DNA of 64,000 bases from an uncultured Caryophanales bacterium (GTDB taxonomy: Bacteria > Bacillota_I > Bacilli_A > RF39 > UBA660): positions 1 through 64,000 of the forward strand of contig CANOYR010000004.1 in NCBI GenBank assembly GCA_947571655.1. The letters are read 5' to 3'. The notes below the pieces were generated by a model. The model saw only the letters and a list, made by a program, of their open reading frames with translations, searched no databases and was not told the origin of the DNA. The first letter of the stretch is position 1. Every line of letters starts with the position of its first letter. Positions 25,185 through 39,787 of this stretch are shown piece after piece. The position numbers were made by a program, and so were the translations under genes.

Positions 25185-25519
25185 GGGCTGTTAGCTCAGT
25201 TGGTAGAGCAACTGACTCTTGGTAATACACTGGGAGCTTGTTATAGTAATATAACAATGAAAATCGAGCAAAAACGGTAAACGCTGAAATGCCAATACCG
25301 TGCTAACTTAATAGATTGCGAAAGGCTATTAAGTAGTGTAACGCATAGAAGTTGAATAAATATAATACTTCCACGAGTGTTCGACAACCAATTATTTGGT
25401 TGATAATGTATGCTGAACTACATAGAATTCGTAATATGTAGAAATATTAGATAAAAAGCTAATATGATAACATTGTTGTAATCAGTGGGTCTAGGGTTCG
25501 AATCCCTAACAGCCCACCA
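25185..25519 (+). tRNA. tRNA-Lys(CUU) interrupted by a group I intron, CCA encoded
   Basis: The exons are 25185-25219 and 25479-25519. Joined, they give a complete cloverleaf: acceptor GGGCTGT/ACAGCCC, D arm GCTC..GAGC, anticodon stem ACTGA/TCAGT with loop CTCTTAA (anticodon CTT), a 5-nt variable loop, T arm TAGGG/CCCTA with TTCGAAT, discriminator A and encoded CCA. The 259 nt between U35 and U36 of the anticodon is a group I intron (separate entry), so the tRNA needs splicing to be functional. Confidence 0.9.
25220..25478 (+). other. Group I self-splicing intron (IA-like) in tRNA-Lys anticodon
   Basis: All core helices can be paired in the canonical order. P1: exon CTCT with IGS GGAG 25233-25236, giving the U-G pair at the 5' splice site. 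P2: 25238-25244/25251-25257. P3: TCGAGCA 25264-25270 / TGTTCGA 25378-25384. P4-P5: ACGGTA 25274 / TACCGT 25296. P6: ACTTAATAG 25306 / CTATTAAGT 25326. P7: GCATA 25343 / TATGC 25409. P7.1: GAAGT/ACTTC. P8: CAACC 25385 / GGTTG 25398. Two P9 hairpins follow. The intron ends in G (omega-G, 25478). The hairpin between P7 and P3' suggests subgroup IA. It has no ORF. Confidence 0.88.
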
Positions 25520-25870
25520 TTTATTTGAAAACTGGTTCCGAAATTTTTAACCTTATCTGTGCAAAAAGTTCGGTGGATGATCTTTTGGTGTAAAAAGGTC
25601 TATATACTATTATATTTATTTATGTAGCAGGTAAATGTAAATAAGTATAAATAATATGATGTTCCTGATTATTTGGTATTTATATATAATAATTAGTTTC
25701 TATTAGATACTATTAAAATATATAAAAAAAGACTCTTAATCAGTGAATTTAGTGTTTGAATCCCTATTTTAGGGATTTTTTATATTTTTAAAGCTAATAG
25801 CCAATTGTATTTTTATTTGTTTTGGTTATTTTTTGTGCAAAATTGGTGCATTTTTTTCGAAAAATACTTT
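25520..25870. other. Gene-free scar between tRNA-Lys and the next ORF
   Basis: About 350 bp with no credible ORF. It contains a tRNA-Lys 3' fragment at 25731-25769 (separate entry), its own hairpin CCCTATTTTAGGG plus T run (25762-25780), and a repeat GTGCAAAATTGGTGCA around 25839-25854. That repeat resembles the paired GGTAC repeats beside the tRNA-Glu element. It is best read as the remains of an integrated element that has been deleted. Confidence 0.5.
25731..25769 (+). repeat. Ghost fragment of tRNA-Lys without the intron (putative att remnant)
   Basis: GACTCTTAATCAGTG (25731-25745) is identical to the spliced anticodon arm of the tRNA-Lys(CUU). The following bases match the variable loop and T arm with four substitutions, ending in GAATCCCTA. 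The junction CTCT/TAATC is uninterrupted here, so this copy lacks the intron. Such 3' tRNA duplications are normally left by site-specific integration. Confidence 0.7.
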
Positions 25871-39481: not shown

Positions 39482-39487
39482 AATAAC

Positions 39488-39787
39488 AACGACTTAGAAA
39501 AAGAAAAGTAGGACTTGAAAAGTTTTATCTAGCGAGTTAGGTATGGTGGAAGCTAACATAAAAGTCAGTCTGAAGAACACTTTGGAGTTGCTTATTCGAA
39601 CCTCTTATGGGAAGTAGGGTAAGTCGGTAAGTAAACCGTTATCGTATTACTAGATTTTGTTAGAAATCGAAAGTGATCATAAATAAAAAAACAGAAATGT
39701 TTATGATAAAATGGGTGGCACCGCGGAAGACTAGTTTCGTCCCATACATGTATCTTCATGTATATGGGATATGACTAGTCTTTTTAT
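39488..39787 (+). promoter_or_regulatory. T-box riboswitch, Asn specifier (AAC)
   Basis: The leader carries the conserved T-box GGGTGGCACCGCGG (39713-39726) and a terminator stem AAGACTAGT / ACTAGTCTT plus T run (near 39730-39786). Stem I has the AGTA bulge (near 39508). The specifier-loop sequence GAAGAACACTTT aligns with the ileS leader's GGATCACTTT, giving AAC (Asn). It should read uncharged tRNA-Asn and control the ProX-like gene and asnS. Confidence 0.88.

Follow-up and report, generated by a model that had tools for sequence, protein, structure and literature searches.

A tRNA-Lys(CUU) gene on the forward strand of the window (the whole 64,000-nt stretch of contig CANOYR010000004.1 analysed here, from an uncultured Caryophanales bacterium of the gut) spans positions 25185-25519 and has an intron of 259 nt inserted between its U35 and U36 (Table 1). 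The joined exons form a 76-nt tRNA with the anticodon CUU and an encoded CCA, all 76 nt of which are identical to an uninterrupted tRNA-Lys(CUU) that numerous genomes of this genus and this family possess and that is called as tRNA-Lys CTT by ARAGORN in congeners (loci L035 and L038). In the congeners that were checked, the intact gene lies a few kb from ddl on the same contig, as it does in the window, and the upstream region of the intact gene is related to that of the window (up to 83% over 52 aligned bases). Because congeners hold the identical uninterrupted tRNA, a known empty site, the 259 nt can be recognised as an insertion, and the split is fixed as U35|U36 by the rules of group I introns (the U-G wobble in P1 and the terminal G) together with the empty sites. 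The initial annotation had held that the two exons make a tRNA-Lys once 259 nt are removed and that the insertion falls between U35 and U36 of a Lys(CUU) host; the sequence and coordinates check out, and the placement is backed by the congener empty sites. The longest stop-free sense stretch in the 259-nt intron is 30 codons, and it contains no endonuclease ORF.

The 3' half of another tRNA-Lys(CUU), degenerate and without an intron, lies ~210 nt downstream of the split gene (25731-25766, forward strand; 86% identity over 36 nt, tRNA positions 30-65). It overlaps a terminator-like hairpin at 25758-25778 and may have been left by an integrated element or by an ancestral gene copy that had no intron. 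Elsewhere in the window, a T-box leader (RF00230, 121.6 bits) occupies 39486-39747 within a tRNA-rich stretch.

Table 1. Parts of the split tRNA-Lys(CUU) gene and its intron in window coordinates, and further family matches in two phages
Feature	Position	Strand	Evidence
5' exon of tRNA-Lys(CUU), positions 1-35, ending ACUGACUCU	25185..25219	+	100% identity to intact congener tRNAs
Group IA intron, 259 nt; first bases UGG, last UUG	25220..25478	+	missing at the congeners' site
3' exon of tRNA-Lys(CUU), U36 through encoded CCA	25479..25519	+	100% identity to intact congener tRNAs
P1: exon CUCU 25216-25219 with GGAG 25233-25236	25216..25236	+	identical in 5/5 Lys copies
P2 hairpin, GUAA tetraloop	25238..25257	+	two-sided changes in 4/8 pairs, five Lys copies
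P3: 25264-25269 with 25379-25384, pseudoknot with P7	25264..25384	+	hand-drawn fold, 24-sequence alignment
P4 25274-25279/25296-25301, P5 25283-25284/25291-25292	25274..25301	+	P4 100% paired, mostly invariant (24 sequences)
P6/P6a hairpin, GAAA loop	25306..25334	+	two-sided changes in 8/9 pairs (24 sequences)
P7: 25341,25343-25347 with 25409-25414; C25342 bulged	25341..25414	+	100% paired (24 sequences)
P7.1 hairpin, IA hallmark	25348..25371	+	two-sided changes in 5/5 pairs, 100% paired (24 sequences)
P8 hairpin	25385..25402	+	two-sided changes in 5/5 pairs (24 sequences)
P9.0 25416-25417/25476-25477, P9 25418-25424/25435-25441, P9.1 25444-25450/25459-25465	25416..25477	+	five Lys copies
Terminal guanosine (omega-G), 3' splice site	25478	+	UUG|UAAUCAG kept in 5/5 Lys copies
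Second, weaker family matches in phage cr128_1 and fecal phage MT835539	L089 2491-2626 and 1364-1558; L086 1-123		

The fold was drawn by hand on the window copy from the rules of group I introns and tested on two alignments, a core alignment of 24 sequences (two tRNA-Lys copies and 22 sequences from phages and viral contigs) and an alignment of five tRNA-Lys copies covering the full structure, including P1, P2, P9, P9.0, and P9.1. P1, P2, P3, P4, P5, P6, P7, P7.1, P8, P9, P9.0, and P9.1 pair in group I order. Across the 24 sequences, 96.4% of the 951 cells in core helices are paired, compared to 71.7% with shuffled partners and 30-41% when the helices are slid, and two-sided changes occur in 27 of the 40 core pairs, including the crossing helices P3 (5/6 pairs; 97.2% of cells paired) and P7. 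Among the five Lys copies, 99.2% of cells are paired and 18 of 71 pairs have two-sided changes (two in P9, four in P9.1, and none in P9.0); P1, P5, and P9.0 are invariant in this set and covariation says nothing about these helices. The slid and shuffled controls are both weakened by the fact that one of the tested sequences served for drawing the structure, but the many two-sided changes are not a product of this. The single-strand fold of the intron is also more stable than shuffled sequences (z -3.28).

Several details of the fold fall on the predicted catalytic and splice-site elements. The wobble at the 5' splice site is formed by U35 and G25233, with P1 extended by three intron pairs, and both this U-G pair and the terminal G are invariant in all five Lys copies. 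Group I introns bind guanosine beside the bulge in P7, and the predicted guanosine-binding pair, G25343-C25413, is invariant across the 24 sequences; A-U/G-C covariation occurs at two positions in P7, one of which adjoins the bulge on the other side from G25343-C25413, and the remainder of the helix is invariant. A P10 of 4-5 bp is possible between CACUG in the P1 loop and CAGUG in the 3' exon, but it leaves a gap, starting four bases into the exon. Collectively, these comparisons support the prediction of a canonical group I ribozyme, assigned to subgroup IA due to the presence of P7.1, a place at which some of the phage relatives carry a longer insert. An IC3 core would lack P7.1, which is present and covarying in this intron family, and the kinship with phage introns expected of IA is seen in BLASTN matches, tree placement, and a weak core match at the T4 td intron (see below). 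The helices P1, P3, P4-P6, P7, P8, and P9 in group I order, the final G, and the IA-like P7.1 hairpin had all been proposed in the initial annotation, and the comparative pairing agrees, with each of the P7.1 pairs covarying.

The split gene escapes standard annotation. Neither ARAGORN nor Rfam, at default settings, called the split tRNA-Lys gene. The intron mode of ARAGORN recovers the gene at exactly 25185-25519, but with the split shifted by 2 nt and the tRNA called as Thr(TGT); the copy in genome G159 (identical exons, intron 96% identical) is called by the same mode as Lys(CTT) with an intron between 35 and 36. A search with the Rfam group I model RF00028, proposed as a check in the initial annotation, failed to find a match at the cutoff, at E values up to 10 for the locus, or genome-wide. 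As a control, RF00028 was applied to a region of phage T4 (L271, T4 134000-146000) with the td and nrdB introns and with endonucleases annotated in group 1A introns, where td had no match at E 0.1 and nrdB scored 35.7 bits against a cutoff of 50. The silence of RF00028 is therefore no refutation, because the model also misses the established td intron and scores nrdB below the cutoff. RF00028 was likewise silent on every scanned intron of this family in phages or other bacterial genomes, its sole match (L091 1999-2312) being a different intron of that phage. RF00028 is blind to the family of the window intron, and counts of group I introns based on it probably underestimate IA introns.

A covariance model of the intron family built here (R1), with the window copy in its training set, scored 170.6 bits on the window (E 1e-40), with the next window match at 12.5 bits, and assigned 108-144 bits to phage copies outside the training set (L085, L089, and L090). 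At the T4 td intron, which is itself IA, R1 reached only 17.6 bits (E 0.003), aligning the P4-P5 core and the GUGCUAA stretch (P4-P5-GCUAA in the window intron); td differs in having a long endonuclease gene in a loop and a phage mRNA as its host.

Twenty-five phage records match the window intron by BLASTN; the best matches are to the terminase region of the crAss-like phage cr7_1 (79.3% identity, with 81% of the intron aligned) and to Staphylococcus phage SA2 (84.9%, with 49% aligned). In SA2 and vB-SscS-F1 the related intron sits between two annotated terminase pieces, and other annotated phage relatives occur beside capsid genes or between helicase pieces. The crAss-like phages have been described as rich in group I introns (PMC7886860). 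The introns of the crAss-like and Staphylococcus phages, in terminase, capsid, and helicase genes, belong to the same family as the window intron, with 72-85% sequence identity and a shared P7.1, UGAAUAAAUAUAAU loop, CACGAGUG before P3', and GAUAACA near the 3' end. They split phage protein genes, and several adjoin or contain endonuclease genes, whereas the window intron has no ORF and lies in a bacterial tRNA anticodon. Scans of viral contigs for a tRNA-hosted copy returned only chance matches among the matches listed. Phage cr128_1 and the fecal phage MT835539 each have an apparent second, weaker family match close by (Table 1).

Amongst bacteria, R1 matched 15 of 386 sampled genomes of the family, five of which, from five genera, carry the intron in tRNA-Lys(CUU) (the genome of the window, G000, and G044, G159, G178, and G266). 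The four other carriers, all from other genera, have the intron at the same site with 84.8-96.1% identity to that of the window. In four further genomes (G407, G415, G202, and G128), and at a second locus in that of the window, the host is a tRNA-Trp (see below), and in the remaining matching genomes of the family the intron occurs mostly in phage- or prophage-like genes, with one that reads as nrdD (ORFs judged by eye). Outside of the family, two genomes matched R1 among 395 class and 392 phylum genomes (the two sets largely overlap), and no tRNA was called around the intron in either. When 84,980 genomes, one for each species, were scanned by pattern, the only true copies were those of the same four other carriers, filed as uncultured Bacilli, Tenericutes, Firmicutes, and Mycoplasma metagenome-assembled genomes (MAGs). 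Among the other matches of that scan, the sequence of a goat MAG was read and held no tRNA, and matches in Halopseudomonas, Nitrosospira, and Geomonas were taken as chance, with R1 finding no intron there. Since the filters were strict and the patterns had to match exactly, the carrier counts are lower bounds.

The same genome has a related intron of the IA family that splits tRNA-Trp(CCA) between positions 31 and 32 (G000:C2:7604-7941, minus strand; locus L107), with a P1 of GUCGGU/GCCGAC and a terminal G. This arrangement is common to G407, G415, and G202, from other genera. A gene for a SleB-like hydrolase lies near the split tRNA-Trp in both the genome of the window and G407. In G128 (contig C96; L108 1400-1960), an intron-bearing tRNA-Trp has its 3' exon broken off soon after the splice site, and an intact, different tRNA-Trp(CCA) follows ~160 nt past the broken copy, which looks like a replacement beside it.

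In the tree, the Lys copies group together, all five in a single clade (97/99) nested among numerous introns, most of them from phages, whose branching is poorly resolved. The five Trp copies make up a clade of their own (99/96), which joins introns of the (pro)phage type from the same bacterial family. Forcing the Lys and Trp introns into a single clade gave a p-AU of 0.067, so that one invasion for both is disfavoured but not rejected, and phage-type introns have probably invaded tRNA genes twice. Between the genome of the window and G159, the intron is 96.1% identical and the DNA of ddl 71.6% identical, with no alignment of the downstream flanks; the intron is missing from congeners whose ddl is 74-75% identical. 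Two types of acceptor stem carry the Lys intron. The high identity of the intron could in part be due to constraint. The pattern suggests to us that the intron spread horizontally, with a conserved anticodon arm as its target and phages as the simplest source, a direction that we infer. For group I introns without an endonuclease of their own, the usual routes are reverse splicing followed by recombination or a homing endonuclease supplied in trans.

It is also conceivable, if unlikely, that the intron descended vertically within the family, having been present in an ancestor and then lost from most of its lineages, which would fit with all Lys copies being at one site, in one family, and in one clade. 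Vertical descent does not sit easily with carriers making up only 5 of the 386 sampled family genomes, scattered over five genera, with the absence of the intron from congeners, with an intron identity (96%) far above that of ddl (72%) between G000 and G159, or with the intron being borne by two types of acceptor stem. Under the preferred reading of horizontal spread, an intron from a family living mainly in phage genes would have passed into tRNA genes in this bacterial family, with tRNA-Lys and tRNA-Trp probably colonised independently.

The predicted course of splicing begins with the transcript being made and the intron folding, upon which an exogenous guanosine would dock at the G-C pair in P7 and attack 3' of U35, which P1 holds in place; the 5' exon released by this step would then attack after the terminal G and the exons would join as an ordinary tRNA-Lys(CUU). 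The tRNA inventory of the genome was compiled from matches to RF00005 and from ARAGORN on the loci; it lists a single Lys(CUU) gene for the assembly, which is 93.7% complete. A tRNA-Lys(UUU) gene is present at C4:95385, and AAG accounts for 73 of the 220 lysine codons in seven nearby genes. A working tRNA is the simplest account, given unchanged exons, an intron core under structural constraint from one genus to the next, and the lack of another Lys(CUU) gene in the inventory, though the loss of Lys(CUU) might be tolerated given tRNA-Lys(UUU).

It is considerably less probable than vertical descent that the gene is dead, the former group I intron no longer splicing and tRNA-Lys(UUU) reading AAG by wobble. 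The existence of tRNA-Lys(UUU), which may make Lys(CUU) dispensable, and the decayed tRNA-Lys piece downstream would be in keeping with such a loss, but neither exon differs from the intact tRNAs at any base (100% identity), the ribozyme core is undamaged and shows compensatory changes from genus to genus, and about a third of the lysine codons in the seven nearby genes are AAG. The case for a functional product is arguably stronger for tRNA-Trp than for Lys(CUU). Contig C3 has a prophage with the only other tRNA-Trp seen in the assembly, placed between the terminase/portal genes and those for the capsid, and, per the inventory of an incomplete assembly, the host's own tRNA-Trp would also depend on splicing. 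The prophage tRNA-Trp, which could act as a stand-in for the split host copy, is part of a Trp-Gly-Asp-Leu cluster of tRNAs between the portal and capsid genes (G000:C3:82900-88400; L111).

The remaining alternatives can be set aside with near certainty. A different kind of element (a fragment of a group II intron, an archaeal-type intron spliced by proteins, or a random insertion) has nothing in its favour except the silence of RF00028, and the P3/P7 pseudoknot, P7 bulge, P7.1, U-G wobble, and terminal G are those of group I, the helices covary, and homologous insertions interrupt protein genes of phages, a setting in which action by a tRNA-splicing endonuclease would be unexpected. An artefact of metagenome assembly or binning might be suspected from the four named carriers being MAGs with contigs of 4.7-16 kb, but five separate assemblies have the same split gene with diverged, compensated sequences, and the gene and ddl are on one contig in the genome of the window, G159, and G044, as in several congeners without the intron. 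Alongside the observed gene structure, empty site, conserved ribozyme fold, and phage kinship, we are thus left highly confident that a phage-type group IA intron, predicted to self-splice and presumably acquired by transfer from phages, interrupts the anticodon of a chromosomal tRNA-Lys(CUU).

The classic group I introns of bacterial tRNAs belong to subgroup IC3. Bacterial tRNA group I introns have been reported in Leu, fMet, Ile, and Arg (PMC3984707, PMC8450103), and also in earlier work as cited by PMC5733544, and a reference listed by PMC3984707 assigns those of Azoarcus and Synechococcus pre-tRNAs to IC3. The introns of Leu(UAA), Arg(CCU), Ile(CAU), and fMet are likewise group I introns in the anticodon loop of a bacterial tRNA, but they occupy other isoacceptors and are IC3, whereas the window intron has P7.1 and phage IA kin. 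The nearest precedent in the Bacillota is provided by the group I introns of tmRNA, which are predominantly from this phylum and mostly without an endonuclease gene (PMC11915505); their host is a tRNA-like bacterial gene, as here, but they sit in the T-loop of tmRNA and the window intron in a tRNA anticodon. A 'tRNA-Lys group I intron' of 49 nt has been claimed in cyanobacteria (PMC5733544), and would not appear to be a comparable precedent, as 22-49 nt should be far too short for a group I ribozyme. The searchable literature, in which subscription journals are thinly covered, held no credible group I precedent in a bacterial tRNA-Lys or tRNA-Trp, provisionally in line with the view in the initial annotation that a Lys(CUU) host is unusual beside Leu, Ile, Arg, and fMet. 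The intron would thus provisionally represent a known class of ribozyme in a new combination of subgroup and host gene.

Taken together, we lean towards a broader reading in which phage-type group IA introns have moved at least twice into the anticodon arms of chromosomal tRNA genes (Lys at 35/36 and Trp at 31/32) in one family of Bacilli and still pass from genus to genus though they encode no endonuclease, such that, in the one genome with both, the decoding of AAG and UGG would depend in part on ribozymes of phage origin. Such a genome would be recorded by standard tools for tRNAs and RNA families as being without tRNA-Lys(CUU), a blind spot of those tools. In textbooks, the introns of bacterial tRNAs are ancient group I introns, mostly IC3, found in a few tRNAs. 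The present ones come from another subgroup, carried by phages, and add two tRNA genes to the list; with both empty sites and several levels of divergence to compare, how tRNA introns spread becomes a testable question.
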